Shown here: positions 9,788 through 16,822 of the stretch, piece after piece
How the letters are laid out: each line of letters begins with the position of its first letter
How positions within the stretch are numbered: position 1 is the first letter of the stretch
Source: Acetobacteraceae bacterium
GTDB taxonomy: Bacteria > Pseudomonadota > Alphaproteobacteria > Acetobacterales > Acetobacteraceae
DNA: 32,445 nt
Assembly (NCBI GenBank): GCA_009693865.1
Contig: SHWL01000033.1
Location: 1-32,445, forward strand
Direction of reading: 5' to 3'
The notes under the pieces: generated by a model
The model's database searches: none
Seen by the model: only the letters and a program-made list of their open reading frames with translations
What the model was told of the DNA's origin: nothing
Translations under genes and position numbers: made by a program

Positions 9788-11056
9788 TCAGGCCGGGATG
9801 CGCACTTTCATCTCGGTGATCCCATGGATCAAATTGGAGTAACTCCGCTTCGGCTCCTCCACGACCTCGATCGCCGGGAACCGCTTCAGGATTTCCTCCC
9901 ACAGGATTGTGAGTTGCATCTCGGCCAGGCGATTGCCGACGCAGCGATGGATCCCGAACCCGAACGACAAATGCTGCCGCGGGCGGGCACGATCGATGAT
10001 GAAGCTGTCGGCGTCCTCGATCTCGTCGCTGTCCCGGTTGCCCGAGATATACCACATGGCAACCTTTTCGCCCGCGCGGATCTGTTTCCCGTTCAGCTCC
10101 GCGTCGCGCAGCGCGGTGCGCCGCATATGCACCACCGGCGACTGATAACGGATGATTTCCGGCACCATCTTCGGGATCAGATCGGGGTTTTCCCGCAGCT
10201 TCTTGTATTGATCGGGGAACTTGTTCAGCGCCCACAAGCCGCCGCTGATCGAATTGCGCGTCGTGTCGTTGCCGCCGACGATCAACAGCAACAGATTACC
10301 CATGAACTCCTGTGGCCGCGACGGCAAATCCCGCGTCGCCTCGCCGTGCGCCAGCATCGAGATCAGATCGAATTTCAGCGGCTGTTGTTGCCGGACTTTC
10401 CACACATCGGTGAAATACGCCAGCATCTGGCGCAGGATCACATCCCGCTTCTGTTCGGAATCGATCTCGGTCCCGGCGCGCGTGTTCACCGTGGCGACGT
10501 TCGACCAATGCGTCAGGGTCCGCCGCTCCTCGAACGGGAAATCGAACAACGTGGACAGCATCTGCGTCGTCAGCTCGACCGAGACGCGGTCCACCCAGTC
10601 GAACACCTCCCCGCGCGGCAGTTCGTCCAGAATGCGGATCGCCCGTTCGCGGATCGTGGCCGACATGTTCGCCAGGTTCGGCGGCGCGACGATCGGCGAC
10701 ACGATCTTGCGTTGCGCGTCGTGCTTCGGCGGATCCATCGCGATGAAGCTTTCCTTGCGAAACTCCAACGGCACGTCCTTCAGCGCGATCCCGCCCATCG
10801 CCGCGTCCGACGAGTAAACACTGTGCGAGGTATCGACCTCCATGATGTCCCGGTAGCGCGTCACCGACCAATACGGCCCATACATCGGACTGTTGACGAA
10901 GTGCACGGGATCGTCGCGCCGCAGCCGCGCGAAGAAGCCGCCCCAGGTGTCTTCCTGATAAAGATAGGGGTTGCTGACATCGATGTCCTCAATCGGCATC
11001 GACCAGGGATCGCGATGGGCGATTGCCTGATAGTCGATCGCGATGGGAGCATTCAT
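9788..11056 (-). CDS. cytochrome P450, CYP153-like (second of tandem pair)
   Basis: A 422-residue class I bacterial P450 resembling CYP153 alkane/fatty-acid terminal hydroxylases. Visible elements are the substrate-side block [14 protein letters not shown] followed by IVAPPNLANM, the I-helix [11 protein letters not shown], the K-helix ExxR in PEIIR, and the heme loop [15 protein letters not shown] with the thiolate Cys. AAGGAGG precedes the ATG. It starts 21 bp after the other P450 and precedes the hydrolase, so all three are likely one operon. No ferredoxin or reductase gene, which class I enzymes need, is in the window. The substrate is inferred from family resemblance only. Confidence 0.92.
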   Translation of the reverse strand: MNAPIAIDYQAIAHRDPWSMPIEDIDVSNPYLYQEDTWGGFFARLRRDDPVHFVNSPMYGPYWSVTRYRDIMEVDTSHSVYSSDAAMGGIALKDVPLEFRKESFIAMDPPKHDAQRKIVSPIVAPPNLANMSATIRERAIRILDELPRGEVFDWVDRVSVELTTQMLSTLFDFPFEERRTLTHWSNVATVNTRAGTEIDSEQKRDVILRQMLAYFTDVWKVRQQQPLKFDLISMLAHGEATRDLPSRPQEFMGNLLLLIVGGNDTTRNSISGGLWALNKFPDQYKKLRENPDLIPKMVPEIIRYQSPVVHMRRTALRDAELNGKQIRAGEKVAMWYISGNRDSDEIEDADSFIIDRARPRQHLSFGFGIHRCVGNRLAEMQLTILWEEILKRFPAIEVVEEPKRSYSNLIHGITEMKVRIPA

Positions 11057-11077
11057 TGCGGCCTCCTTCTGTTTTTG

Positions 11078-12325
11078 TCAGGCCGGGATACGGACCATCA
11101 TGGACGAAATCCCGTGCACGAAGCTGGAAAAAATCCGCTTCGGCTCTTCCACCAATTCGATCACCGGGAAGCGCTTCATGATTTCCTCCCACAGGATTGT
11201 CAGTTGCAGTTCGGCCAGACGGTTGCCCACGCAGCGATGAATGCCGAACCCAAACGATAAATGCTGCCGCGGACGCGCGCGGTCGATGATGAAGCTGTCC
11301 GGATCCTCAATCGCCTCGGCGTCGCGGTTGCCGGAGATGTACCACATCGCCAGCTTGTCCCCCGCGCGGAGCGTCTTGCCGCCCAGTTCGGTGTCCGACA
11401 GCACGGAGCGGCGCATGTAGGAGAGCGGGGTTTGCCAGCGAATGATCTCCGGCACCATGTTCGGGATCAGACCCGGATTTTCCCGCAGTTTGCGATATTC
11501 GCCAGGGTGCTTGCACAGTGCCCACAGTCCGCCGCTGATGGAATTGCGGGTCGTGTCGTTGCCGCCGACGATAAGAAGCACGCAATTTCCCATGAACTCC
11601 ATCGGGTCCATGTTCCGCGTTGCCTCTCCATGCGACAGCATCGAAATCAGGTCGGGCTTCATCGGCGCGTTCACACGCTCGTTCCACAACCCCATCATGG
11701 CGCCGGCCATTTTTTTCAGCTCGTTGAACCGCTCTTCCTCGGTTTTCACGAGCGCGTTGGGATCCTTGAAATTGGTCGTGGCGACGTTCGACCAGTGCGT
11801 GAGATCCCTCCGCTTTTCGAACGGGTAGTCGAACAGCGTCGCGAGCATCTGGGTCGTCAGCTCGATCGACACACGCTCCACCCAATCGAAGGTTTCGTTG
11901 CGGGGAAGTTTCTCCAGAATCTCGATCGCCCGTTCCCGGATCGTGCCGGCCATGTTGGCGAGATTGCCCGGCGCCACGATCGGCGCCACCACGAGGCGCT
12001 GCACGTCGTGCTTCGGCGGGTCCATGGCGATGAACATCGCCAGCCGGTACTGGGTTTCCTGGTCCAGCAGGGTAATCCCGAACGCCGAGGAGAAGACCTG
12101 AGGATTGGTCTCCACCTTCATGATGTCCTTGTATTTCGTCACCGACCAGTACGGGCCGAACTGGCTGTCCGCCACATAATGCACCGGATCGTCCCGCCGC
12201 AGACGGGCGAACCAGTCGGGCCAGACGTCATTCTGAAAAATGCGCGCGTCGGAGACGTCGATCTGGTCCAGCGGCATGGTCCAGGGATCGCCCAAAGGAG
12301 GATCGGTGCTGACCGGCGCGTTCAT
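11078..12325 (-). CDS. cytochrome P450, CYP153-like (first of tandem pair)
   Basis: A 415-residue P450. The start [15 protein letters not shown] is chosen for GGGAGG just upstream; the longer frame to 12409 would run into the promoter region shared with dapF. The motifs are as in its neighbour: [58 protein letters not shown], and heme loop [15 protein letters not shown]. The two P450s are clearly paralogues. They diverge most around residues 75-95 and 185-215, which may give different substrate choice. It is first in the minus-strand unit, with a 98-bp gap to divergent dapF. Confidence 0.92.
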
Positions 12326-12423
12326 GGTGCCCTCCCTTGGCTTGGCCGGGGTACGGTAACCTGGCCTGTCCGGCGCCGCAATTGACGGTTGGCCATCCGT
12401 ACTGGGCACCTTATATCCGATCC

Positions 12424-13257
12424 ATGCGCGCCTCCTTCCTGAAAATGCACGGCTGCGGGAACGATTTCGTCGTGTTCGACGAACGGAGGGGCCCGCTCGG
12501 GCTCACGCCGGCCCGCGCCGCCGCCATCGCCAACCGGCGGACCGGGGTAGGCTGCGACCAGTTCATCGTCATCGAACCGGCGGAGGCGGGCGCGGACGCC
12601 TTCATGCGCATCCGCAATCCCGACGGAGCCGAGGCGGGCGCCTGCGGCAACGCCACCCGTTGCGTCGCGCATCTGCTGGCCGCGGAAACCGGGCGTTCGC
12701 GCCAGGTGATCCGCACCATCGCCGGCGATCTGCCGTCCGAGGTTCTACCCAACGGGCTGGTCTCGGTCGATATGGGCCCGGTTCGCCTGGATTGGCGGGA
12801 GGTCCCCCTGGCTCGCCCGATGGACACGTTGGACCTGGATCTGAGCGTCGGTCCGGTGTCTCACCCCGCCGCCGCGAGCATGGGAAACCCGCACGCGACG
12901 TTCTTCGTGACGGATATGGGTTCAATTCCGATCGACAAGATTGGACCTGTGCTGGAACGCGACCCGATCTTCCCCGAGCGTGCCAATATTGGCTTCGTCC
13001 AGATCCTGAGCCCGAACCGGTTTCGCTTACGGGTGTGGGAGCGAGGCGCCGGCCTGACGCTCGCCTGCGGCTCCGGCGCCTGTGCCGCGCTGGTCAATGC
13101 CGCCCGCCGCGGCCTCGCGGGACGGCAAGCAACGGTCATCACCGATGGCGGCGAGCTGATCATCGTCTGGCAGGACGATAACCACGTCCTGATGACCGGC
13201 CCGGTCGCGACGTCGTTCACGGGTGAAATCGACCTCGAGGCACTGCCCCTGAACTGA
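12424..13257 (+). CDS. dapF: diaminopimelate epimerase
   Basis: A 277-residue cofactor-independent epimerase that converts LL- to meso-diaminopimelate for lysine and peptidoglycan synthesis. The two half-domains each carry a catalytic cysteine: Cys74 in GACGNATRC and Cys215 in LACGSGACA. The N-terminal [16 protein letters not shown] and the central [10 protein letters not shown] are family signatures. The start ATG at 12424 fits the family N-terminus. It is divergent from the P450 unit. Length and motifs are complete, so it should be active. It is a likely essential housekeeping gene and marks a core-genome stretch. Confidence 0.97.
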
Positions 13258-13288: not shown

Positions 13289-13302
13289 TTGATCTGCGTC
13301 AA
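13289..13302 (+). promoter_or_regulatory. FixK/FNR-type (anaerobox) binding site
   Basis: TTGATCTGCGTCAA fits the Crp-Fnr family consensus TTGAT-N4-(A/G)TCAA with no mismatch in either half. Its centre lies about 72 bp before the start of the small ORF at 13368. A promoter 41 bp downstream of the box centre would leave a leader of roughly 30 nt. This predicts oxygen- or nitric-oxide-responsive activation of that ORF. The site is seen directly; the regulator and its use are inference. Confidence 0.7.
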
Positions 13303-13367
13303 AGCAGAGACCGGGCGGCCGCGGCATTTTTCATGCTGAACAGGTCAGCACGAAGGAGGCAATCGTC

Positions 13368-13526
13368 ATGGCCACGATGACAATGTCAGAGACGTCAGGT
13401 ACCGCCGCCCGGTTCGTGCCAAAACACACCGAAGGCGTCAGTCACCTGTTGCCGTTCTTACTCGCGATGGCGTTGCTCGCGGCATCGGCGGTGGTGTCAG
13501 TTCTGCTCCCCGGCCCGATGCACTGA
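13368..13526 (+). CDS. small single-pass membrane protein, 52 residues
   Basis: A short ORF from ATG 13368 to TGA 13524-13526. AAGGAGG at 13353-13359, 8 nt before the ATG, is a near-ideal ribosome-binding site. The product has a polar N-terminus (MATMTMSETSGTAARFVPK) and one hydrophobic helix (LLPFLLAMALLAASAVVSVL) ending PGPMH. A FixK/FNR-type box lies upstream. No family is recognised. The combination suggests a small subunit or accessory factor of a membrane complex made at low oxygen, which is inference. It lies alone between dapF and convergent comF. Confidence 0.75.
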   Translation: MATMTMSETSGTAARFVPKHTEGVSHLLPFLLAMALLAASAVVSVLLPGPMH

Positions 13527-13558: not shown

Positions 13559-14407
13559 TCACTCATCGAGTTCCTTGAGATCCACGGCACGGTTCCGCCG
13601 CCGGAAACGTTTGCGCCCACGGGACTTCAAGCGCGGGTCAGGCACGCGAACCGCGACCAGCACATCGACCGAAGCCGCTCCCACCTCCAATAACGTCTCC
13701 GCGCAGGCACTGGCGGTCGCGCCAGAGGTCATGACATCGTCGATCACCAGAATCCGGCGTCCCGCCAACGCGGTGGCACGGCCCGGACGGACGGAGAAGG
13801 CGCCCGCCACCTCATCGCGCCGCTCCGCCGCCGACTTGCGAGCGAGGGATTCCGTGGCGTGCGACCGTATCAGCGCATCGATCAGCACGGCCCGCCCGGT
13901 CATGCGGCCCAACGCCTGAGCAAGCAGCGCCGCCTGATTATAACGGCGAGAAAACAACCGCCGCCGATGCAGCGGCACCGGCACCAGCACATCCGCCTCT
14001 CGCAACAAAACCGCCCCCGCCTGGGCCATCTTGCGGGCGAGGATCGCCGCATATTCGGTCCGGTCGCCATGCTTGAACGGCAGCACCAGGCGGCGGGAGG
14101 CTTTATCGTAATTCAACGCCGCCCGCGCCCGGTGAAACGGCGGCGGCGTGTCGATGCAACGGTGACACAGCCCGCCCTCGGAGTCGTGCCAGGCCAACTC
14201 GAACGGTGCACCGCAACACGCGCAACAGGGCGCGCCAATCGCGCTGAGCGCGCCAAAGCAAACGCCGCATTGCAGTCCCGGCGCATCGACCGGGGTGGCA
14301 CAAGTGACGCAGGCGGGTGGCAGCAACAGATCGAGCGCAGCCCGCGCCAGTCGGCGCGGGTTGAAAAAATCAGTGCGAGGCGGAAACGCCAAATACAATC
14401 GTACCAT
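13559..14407 (-). CDS. comF: ComF family phosphoribosyltransferase-like protein
   Basis: A 282-residue double zinc ribbon plus phosphoribosyltransferase protein. The N-terminal CVTCATPVDAPGLQCGVC and CCACCGAPF, and then LCHRC, provide zinc ligands. The C-terminal PRTase loop is ILVIDDVMTSGAT, with LVPVPLHRRRLFSRRYNQA in the hood region. ComF-type proteins take part in DNA uptake and recombination; most members are uncharacterised. The start overlaps the last 38 bp of the rhodanese gene, so the two are coupled. In many alphaproteobacteria comF sits near the methyltransferase found here at 16.0 kb; in this window a rhodanese gene lies between them. Confidence 0.93.
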   Translation of the reverse strand: MVRLYLAFPPRTDFFNPRRLARAALDLLLPPACVTCATPVDAPGLQCGVCFGALSAIGAPCCACCGAPFELAWHDSEGGLCHRCIDTPPPFHRARAALNYDKASRRLVLPFKHGDRTEYAAILARKMAQAGAVLLREADVLVPVPLHRRRLFSRRYNQAALLAQALGRMTGRAVLIDALIRSHATESLARKSAAERRDEVAGAFSVRPGRATALAGRRILVIDDVMTSGATASACAETLLEVGAASVDVLVAVRVPDPRLKSRGRKRFRRRNRAVDLKELDE

Positions 14408-15938
14408 CCCGCTCGATTTCGTTCACGAGGTCGATCTCCCAGGTCAGATACGCGTTCATCGCCTCTTCCACACCTGAATTCCGGTCGTAGGCTCGCAGGT
14501 AGAAATCGATGCAGTCGTCGTCCGGCGGATCGGCGCGGTTGACCGACACGGGATGCCCAGAGGCGCGCCAGCCGGCGGTGCCGCCTTCCAGCACCAGGAC
14601 CTCGGCTTTGGTCATGGCCTTGACCTCGGCATGGGCAAGCCGGGCCAGCGCCCCGTCCGGCGAGGTCAGCACAATCCGGCGCGCCTGTTTATGTTTGGCG
14701 ATCACCTGGCCCAGGCGGCTCCGGACCCCCCAGATCGCGTGCGAGATATGCCCGGCGCGGAAGTCGATACTGCGCGCGAGATCGATGATGAGGGTGCCCG
14801 CCTCGTTCGCGGCAAGCACCGCCGCTTCGATCGTTGGCGCTGGCGGGGCGAGATCGGGCAGACTACTTCCAGTGTCCTGACCAAGGGCATTGTCCGCGAC
14901 AAAGACGTCCTGATGACCCATCTGCCGCAGCCAGGCGGCGGACATCCGTGCGCGGACCCCTGTGTCGTCGATGACCACGACCCGGGCGCCCCGGACGCCA
15001 ACCCAGGTATCGGTCGCCTGCACCAGTTGACCGCCAGGGGCACTGAGGCTGCCAGTCCGATGACCGGCGCGATACTCGCTGGGGTCGCGAACGTCGAGTA
15101 CATAGTGGGTTCGAGAGGGATCCGCCTCAAACGCCTCGAGTTCGTCCGTCGTAATGACACGCACGCCCGATTGATCCGCGAAGGCCGTGGCGCGGCTCAG
15201 CGCGAGCGAGAGCGTGGCGGGAGTGCCGGGGACGAACCGCTCCGGCCGGCCATGTTCGCAAGTCAGGCCCGCGAGTTCCCAGCCCATCGTGCCGTTGCGT
15301 AGTGCCACGACCTGGTTCGGGATGCCGGCGCGGCGAAGGCTCTCGGCGCCCATGATGCTGCGGGTGCGGCCCGCGCAATTGACGACTACGAGAGTCTCCG
15401 GATCGGGAGCAAGGTCCCCGATGCGATAGGCCAGCTCGGCGCCCGGCATCGGAATGCCCGACGGGATCGACATGCGGGTGAATTCCTCCTGCGTGCGGCT
15501 GTCGAGGACGATCATGTTCCGGCCGCTGTCGATCCATTGCTTTAACTCGAGCGCGTCGACGCTTTCGGTGCCGTAGTGGTGTTCGACCCATTCCCCAAAA
15601 GCCTTGGAGGGGACGTTCATGCCCGAAAACAGGACATGGCCCGCGTCTTTCCAGGCCTTGGTGCCACCAGCCAGGAAAGAGACGTCGGTGTAACCCGCGC
15701 TTTCCAGCCACGCGGCGAGTTGAAGAGCCAGTTGACCGCCATCATCGGTCACGACAATGCGAACGTTCTTGCGAGGAAGCAGGGCCTGAGCGCGGGTCTC
15801 GCGGTGCGCCATGCCGAAAGGGATGGCCCAGAAAAGATGGCCGGCGCCAAATTCGCCGTCCTCCCGCGCGTCGATCAAAGCCAGTTCCTGGCCGTCCAGG
15901 ATGCACACGCGCAGGGTATTGGGGTCGATGTGTTTCAC
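14370..15938 (-). CDS. four-domain rhodanese-like protein, one active-site cysteine
   Basis: A 522-residue cytosolic protein built of four rhodanese modules, near residues 5-105, 125-230, 250-350 and 365-460, plus a 55-residue C-terminal tail (DDDCIDFYLRAYDRN then EEAMNAYLTWEIDL). Only module 2 keeps the catalytic loop: Cys188 in NCAGRTRS. At the same place module 1 reads TDDGGQLA, module 3 IDDTGVRA and module 4 TSPDGALA, so these cannot carry a persulfide. The GTG at 15938 is chosen because sequence further upstream is not rhodanese-like and lies in the divergent promoter. The likely role is sulfur transfer or a persulfide relay with structural modules. The partner is unknown; translation is coupled to comF. 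Confidence 0.88.
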   Translation of the reverse strand: MKHIDPNTLRVCILDGQELALIDAREDGEFGAGHLFWAIPFGMAHRETRAQALLPRKNVRIVVTDDGGQLALQLAAWLESAGYTDVSFLAGGTKAWKDAGHVLFSGMNVPSKAFGEWVEHHYGTESVDALELKQWIDSGRNMIVLDSRTQEEFTRMSIPSGIPMPGAELAYRIGDLAPDPETLVVVNCAGRTRSIMGAESLRRAGIPNQVVALRNGTMGWELAGLTCEHGRPERFVPGTPATLSLALSRATAFADQSGVRVITTDELEAFEADPSRTHYVLDVRDPSEYRAGHRTGSLSAPGGQLVQATDTWVGVRGARVVVIDDTGVRARMSAAWLRQMGHQDVFVADNALGQDTGSSLPDLAPPAPTIEAAVLAANEAGTLIIDLARSIDFRAGHISHAIWGVRSRLGQVIAKHKQARRIVLTSPDGALARLAHAEVKAMTKAEVLVLEGGTAGWRASGHPVSVNRADPPDDDCIDFYLRAYDRNSGVEEAMNAYLTWEIDLVNEIERDGTIVFGVSASH

Positions 15939-16024
15939 AGTCGTAATTCTCCCATCATGTCGCGGAAAGTAGCAAAACGGGCGGTGCTTGGCAACCTTTG
16001 GTGGTGCTGGTAGCGAGCCCGCCC

Positions 16025-16822
16025 ATGGAAACCATGCTGGTGTTCGACCGCGACACGGTCCGGGCGCATCGCGACCGCGCTGCCGCCACGGTCGCATCGG
16101 TCGCCGATCTGCTGCGCGACGCCGCGGACCGGTTGCTGGATCGGCTGGACGACATGACGGGCACATTCCAACACGCGCTGGATGTTGGCGGCCGGGGGGT
16201 GGTTGCTCCGATGTTGCGGGCGCGTGGGATTGCCGTCGTGTCCTCCGATCTGTCGGTCCCGATGGCGCGGTTGAACGGCGGGCTGGCGGTCGCGGCGGAC
16301 GAGGAGTTCTCGCCGTTCGCGACGGGCTCGTTCGATCTGATCGTGGCGAGCCTGTCGCTGCACTGGATCAACGATCTGCCGGGGGCGCTGATCCAGTTGC
16401 GCCGCGCGCTGCGTCCGGATGGGTTATTCCTCGCGTCAATGCCCTGTCTGGGCAGTTTGGCGGAGTTGCGAGCGGCGTTGACTGACTCCGAGCTGGCGCT
16501 TCTGGGCGGGGTGTCGCCACGGGTGTCGCCGTTTCCGGACCTTTCCGACTGCGCGGGCTTGTTGCAACGAGCGGGCTTTGCCGCGCCGGTCGCCGATCTG
16601 GAGGAGATTGTCGTGCGTTACGCCGATCCATTGCGGATGTTGCGCGATTTGCGGGCGGCGGGGGAGACGAATGCGGTTCGGGCGCGGTCGCGGACGTTTG
16701 CGCCCGCTGGATTGTTTCCGGCAACGCTGGCGGCGATGGCCGGGGAGGACGGGCGGGTGCCGGTGACAATGAGGCTGGCCATGATGACCGGGTGGGTGGC
16801 TGGAAAGGTCGGCGAGACCTGA
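16025..16822 (+). CDS. SAM-dependent methyltransferase-fold protein, NDUFAF5/BioC-like
   Basis: A 265-residue class I methyltransferase-fold protein. The SAM site is ALDVGGRGVVAPML, which is less glycine-rich than usual. Later motifs are SSDLSVPMARL, FDLIVASLSLHWINDLPGAL and LRPDGLFLASMPC. The HWxNDLPGAL stretch and overall length match NDUFAF5-type proteins, whose mitochondrial member hydroxylates an arginine of a complex I subunit. Bacterial members are mostly untested, and BioC relatives act in biotin synthesis. It is divergent from the rhodanese-comF unit across an 86-bp gap. The ATG at 16025 is preferred; one at 16034 is also possible. Confidence 0.85.
   Translation: METMLVFDRDTVRAHRDRAAATVASVADLLRDAADRLLDRLDDMTGTFQHALDVGGRGVVAPMLRARGIAVVSSDLSVPMARLNGGLAVAADEEFSPFATGSFDLIVASLSLHWINDLPGALIQLRRALRPDGLFLASMPCLGSLAELRAALTDSELALLGGVSPRVSPFPDLSDCAGLLQRAGFAAPVADLEEIVVRYADPLRMLRDLRAAGETNAVRARSRTFAPAGLFPATLAAMAGEDGRVPVTMRLAMMTGWVAGKVGET

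Follow-up and report, generated by a model that had tools for sequence, protein, structure and literature searches.

The assembly and stability of terminal oxidases are affected by small single-helix proteins, among them CcoQ, CcoM and CydX, which are difficult to detect by sequence. Oxidases can take up extra single-helix subunits, as is described for CcoM (PMC8267372) and CydX (PMC4325964), and a few CydX homologues are encoded away from cydAB (PMC4325964). In Rhodobacter, the targets of the regulator FnrL include ccoNOQP (ccoN), hemA, uspA and fnrL, according to PMC4634722 and PMC2908626.

The small ORF considered here lies behind an FnrL/FNR box in a window (the whole stretch of DNA that was analysed) of 32,445 nucleotides. 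The 14 letters of this box are identical to the FnrL recognition sequence listed for ccpA and speB1 of Rhodobacter capsulatus in PMC4634722. Unlike this box, which is shared with the Rhodobacter FnrL regulons, the ORF had no convincing homologue outside its own family in a class-wide draw of 385 genomes. As a small single-helix protein, its product resembles CcoM of the Pseudomonas cbb3 oxidase and CydX of cytochrome bd, and with CcoQ/FixQ (PF05545) it shares a length of about 50 aa, one helix and a unit with the same box type. It differs from CcoM in that the profile search of solved structures with the family gave nothing better than E 0.18 and matched no cbb3 chain, the CcoM sequence itself lying outside this comparison.

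The small ORF and its product

The following features were recognized in the window:

13289..13302, + strand: FnrL/FNR box TTGATCTGCGTCAA, letter-perfect, read from the sequence
13325..13330, + strand: -10-like element CATTTT in class II placement, with A and T at positions +24 and +28 counted from the box
13353..13359, + strand: ribosome-binding site AAGGAGG, 8 bases 5' of ATG, read from the sequence
13368..13526, + strand: small ORF for a 52-aa protein with a single transmembrane helix and the signature [H/Q]xxP, which is followed by 24 residues up to the C-terminal His

The ORF consists of 52 codons with ATG as start and TGA as stop, and purine-rich stretches also precede the start codons of its homologues. 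Transcription is predicted to start near 13337. On the 5' side, the box and ORF are adjoined by a DAP-epimerase gene ending at 13257, and on the 3' side by a convergent comF-like gene with double-zinc-ribbon and phosphoribosyltransferase domains. A sigma-70 and terminator scan gave no match. A perfect TTGAT-N4-GTCAA-type box, a strong ribosome-binding site and a 52-residue single-helix protein had all been named in the original prediction, and each of them stands.

When one mismatch was allowed, the window contained 2 boxes against 1.41 expected, so the count within the window is by itself hardly informative. Across the genome of 4.48 Mb, there are 11 sites of the form TTGATN4GTCAA and 21 of the form TTGAYN4RTCAA, against 0 in the reversed control in both cases; the latter number puts the chance of one site per given 130-base stretch at about 6 in 10,000.

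In the protein of the window, the only hydrophobic segment spans residues 30-48 (mean Kyte-Doolittle value of 2.42), and the AlphaFold2 model contains one helix (27-46, mean pLDDT of 71). The 20 homologous ORFs are 41-55 codons long. The distance from an invariant proline to the C-terminus is exactly 24 residues in 17 of them and 23, 25 and 25 residues in the other three; three positions before this proline there is H (16/20) or Q (4/20), and the sequence ends with H in 17 cases, with L in two and with A in one. Thus, the family protein ends in a fixed module composed of [H/Q]xxP and 23-25 further residues, usually with His as the last one. The charges flanking the helix disagree among the members and fix no topology. 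Purifying selection acts on the small ORF, as the dN/dS values of four homologue pairs (0.127, 0.306, 0.204 and 0.218) are well below 1. No Pfam match was obtained for any of the 12 members scanned out of 20, and NCBIfam gave only two chance-level matches, one member each.

Two other observations concern the window itself. At 9788-12409 (-), there are two adjoining cytochrome P450 genes, alike by eye and perhaps arisen by tandem duplication, and a single chain with four rhodanese-domain stretches is encoded at 14370-16166 (-).

Occurrence of the family

In the first search, tblastn over 59 genomes including the window's own, 27 genomes had a match at E <=1, many of these matches being spurious; the best match of the window peptide was 78% in one congener, with weaker ones in others. 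The profile search of the genus recognized clear members in 12 genomes out of 33, counting that of the window, and the small gene was not found in the other 21. Profile searches of 397 genomes drawn from the family added 8 carrier genomes from four other genera; 17 or 18 of the first-look candidates were scored per genome in the large draws, and member counts are to be read as "at least". The ORF frame and the box are both conserved in relatives, and the original prediction, which a broken frame there would have refuted, passes this check.

A number of matches were not accepted as members. These were 6 of 18 matching genomes in the genus profile search (E 7.9e-4 or weaker), with the G026 match lying in a 142-aa frame and its best site scoring 8/10, and 3 of 17 in the first family draw (G147, G282 and G353, for which no fitting small ORF was listed); G188 and G221 were accepted after a closer look. 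In the larger family draw, 45 of 59 matching genomes were excluded (E 6e-4 or weaker, mostly within long frames), including the match in G142 with a best site of 8/10. The G722 match of the class draw sits in a 463-aa frame, and a match in a record labelled Synechococcus (L242) is within a long frame and has no good box.

Four genus copies are present in named metagenome records labelled Acetobacteraceae, with peptides identical to those of G001, G016, G009 and G003; judging by these records, the host family is Acetobacteraceae. The placement in Rhodospirillales made in the original prediction fits this label. No paper on this type of ORF was found in a search limited to one open library. It may be concluded that this is a new small-protein family and, if the reading given below holds, a variant of the known FNR-controlled single-helix respiratory accessories.

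The distribution is patchy. To explain the presence of the gene on a CcoN tree of 20 rows, no fewer than 4 changes are required, and well-supported branches make 2 of these unavoidable; the small gene was not found in G011, which adjoins a carrier. At the same time, carriers are clustered in this tree, with 4 changes among 20 rows vs 7.1 in shuffles. The presence of ccoN does not discriminate carriers (11/12) from non-carriers (17/21; Fisher p 0.63, not significant). Matches to cydA were found in 3 of 12 carriers vs 18 of 21 non-carriers (Fisher p 0.0009) and, among genomes >=90% complete and <=5% contaminated, in 1 of 8 vs 12 of 15 (p 0.006); since carriers are clustered and all five rows of a carrier-free clade have cydA, no functional claim is made from this anti-correlation. 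An FnrL orthologue was associated with the small gene (11/12 carriers vs 6/21 non-carriers, p 0.0008), a result that shares the weakness of clustering, comes from a query that was the window genome's own copy and leaves aside 13 more non-carriers with weaker matches.

Promoter design and the FnrL regulon

The box is kept at all 20 homologous ORFs: taken as the highest-scoring site within 130 bases upstream, it scores 10/10 at 15 loci and 9/10 at 5, and it is separated from the start codon by 51-83 bases. When the 20 loci are anchored on the box, columns +2 to +37 are G+C-rich (<=0.45 A/T), except for +24, with A/T in 15 loci (12 A), and +28, with A/T in 19 (16 T); A at +24 and T at +28 occur together at 11 loci. 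The binomial p-values are 1e-4 (+24) and 5.5e-9 (+28) at an assumed A+T of 0.32, uncorrected for the number of columns or kinship. In a -10 element that places the box at -41.5, which is the class II position for FNR, the two columns are bases 2 and 6.

Some other positions in the same alignment are also uneven. Column +38 after the box is A/T-rich (0.80), perhaps as part of a second regulator site, and G at -18 (15/20), A at -15 (15/20) and C at -8 (17/20) prevail upstream of the box. In one genus, the upstream letters are GGACAGC...CTGACCG-like and perhaps also belong to a second regulator site.

The genes adjoining the 20 boxed ORFs differ. One convergent gene family (a scanned copy is Kup) is shared by 9 of the 17 other loci, and FliI, MFS-like or LLM-like genes are near at others. 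At 16 of 17 loci, the next ORF picked downstream points towards the small ORF, and the remaining locus is at a contig end, so the unit looks monocistronic. No respiratory gene was identified among the neighbours in a set of 10 scanned neighbour proteins and those of the window, most neighbours lying outside this set. An accessory role for an oxidase or respiratory complex, as proposed in the original prediction, is a matter of interpretation: neither the identified neighbours nor the ccoN statistics point to it, and the gene is missing from a genome closely related to a carrier.

The promoter of ccoNOQP, encoding the cbb3 oxidase, was checked in 20 congeneric genomes (10 carriers and 10 non-carriers) from the 28 with a ccoN match. 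A perfect box was found in all 20; 19 of them have A at +24, 16 have T at +28, and 16 have both. In other words, the small ORF and ccoNOQP have a common promoter design. The strict class II pattern gave 49 sites in six carriers and 0 in the reversed control, with cco downstream in 3 of the six genomes and the small ORF in 3; it misses the promoter of the small gene in 3 of six carriers and at 9 of 20 loci overall. Other genes 3' of class II sites encode an ALAS-like aminotransferase, Usp, a NapC/NirT cytochrome, DUF6455, an FnrL-type regulator, another Crp-type regulator and a receiver domain, and one site is followed by a P-type-ATPase-like ORF, read by eye. Some sites have no clear downstream gene, and others precede genes of no evident low-oxygen role. 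In our opinion, the promoter evidence, which is evidence from sequence, is strong for the putative membership of the small gene in the FnrL regulon.

The FnrL orthologues of nine relatives (seven carriers and two non-carriers) have CxxCx7C, a later Cys and an ETVSR/ETISR helix. Hence, of the designation "FixK/FNR-type" used previously, the FNR side is retained, and an FnrL-type regulator with a Cys cluster fits better than FixK. Carrier G022 had no FnrL match at the limit set. At the FnrL locus of the window genome (G000:C111:32601-32783, L206), only the C-terminal 81 residues align, and examination of 1.4 kb upstream did not reveal the part with the cysteines. The same genome (81% complete) had no ccoN match; assembly, decay or gene loss may account for both the missing ccoN and the partial FnrL.

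Probable action and alternative explanations

Summarizing these data, we consider the small ORF to be a stand-alone gene of the FnrL regulon for a bitopic inner-membrane microprotein, whose likeliest partner is the cbb3 oxidase or the machinery that assembles it, with a probability of roughly 0.4. Without oxygen, [4Fe-4S] FnrL would bind the box centred at -41.5 and recruit RNA polymerase at the -10 element (class II activation), and a transcript with a short leader would then give the 52-residue bitopic inner-membrane protein. The helix begins at an invariant proline, and the C-terminus, usually a histidine, follows at a fixed distance of 23-25 residues, so helix-to-helix docking of this protein at a set depth is probable. 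Its partner would be a co-made membrane complex, the oxidase being the likeliest of several, and the small protein would tune the stability or assembly of this complex. Given its patchy presence and the lack of discrimination by ccoN, the small protein seems to be an accessory and not a core subunit. As every copy found lies behind a low-oxygen switch of the kind that also precedes a high-affinity oxidase, it probably helps respiration when oxygen is scarce. As to the low-oxygen unit of the original prediction, it is strongly supported at the level of sequence (boxes at every locus, class II -10 element, ccoNOQP-like promoter); low-oxygen induction, topology, partner and effect are what we infer.

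A substantial possibility, although short of an even chance, is an FnrL-controlled microprotein with a partner other than cbb3, i.e. another regulon product (NapC/NirT-type cytochrome, transport ATPase or other quinone enzymes), or one that serves general membrane adaptation. The class II sites before Usp, NapC/NirT and regulator genes and before the P-type-ATPase-like ORF speak in its favour, as do the orphan position and dispensability of the small gene; general membrane adaptation has been proposed for stress-induced small membrane proteins, e.g. YohP, in the available part of the source. However, there is no positive link to any single partner, and cbb3 is the one regulon product that was checked in 20 genomes and found to have the same promoter design. 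The examples of CcoM and CydX, together with the same size class and one helix, count for one of the known small subunits of oxidases (CcoQ/FixQ or CydX), either displaced or present as an extra copy, but this origin is improbable. A separate ccoQ-like ORF lies between ccoO and ccoP in 20/20 cco operons, and one of these ORFs was recognized by Pfam as FixQ, which shows that the PF05545 control works, whereas all 12 scanned members of the small family have no match; displaced CcoQ was rejected on these grounds. CydX is disfavoured by the same absence of a Pfam match and by the 9 of 12 carriers without a cydA match.

Being short, hydrophobic and orphan, the product might also be taken for a type I toxin-like peptide or another non-respiratory short membrane peptide. 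This is quite improbable in view of the activator-type FNR promoter and purifying selection; moreover, Rfam gave no match around the small ORF, and a tblastn search of plasmids with the window peptide gave none either. The very short length of the ORF and the expectation of one-mismatch boxes in the window would suit a chance ORF behind a chance box, an explanation with practically no probability left, as it is refuted by 20 homologous ORFs with 20 boxes, low dN/dS and a fixed C-terminal length.

The preferred reading, with the oxidase or its assembly machinery as partner, can be put in a narrower form: a new FnrL-activated family of subunits, each with a single helix, that belong to the cbb3 oxidase (or to the complex assembling it), being a self-contained promoter-plus-gene unit in varying genomic places of Acetobacteraceae, with an [H/Q]xxP + 23-25-residue C-terminal module usually ending in His. 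In this form it is rather doubtful. If the cbb3 oxidase does bind the small protein, the latter would be an additional subunit, specific to the lineage and controlled directly by oxygen. The promoter contributed as much as the sequence to finding the family, and the box, -10 signal and fixed C-terminal length make it testable.

Some minor observations were made on other genes behind FNR boxes. Receiver-only response regulators follow class II boxes in two genomes (L188:1595-1963, confirmed by domain scan, and L187:1103-1471, recognized by eye). Between the FNR box and ccoN (L203:1606-1815 and the box-ccoN gap in L156-L175), there is an ORF for an uncharacterised protein of about 70 aa, in which two hydrophobic stretches can be recognized by eye. 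One copy had no Pfam match at E 0.001, and another had none over the cut-off. A loose pattern finds this leader ORF at 18 of 20 cco loci, and a 19th (G010) was also seen; it continues into the frame of ccoN in two genomes, G004 and G031. Its product is possibly a new cbb3-linked protein.
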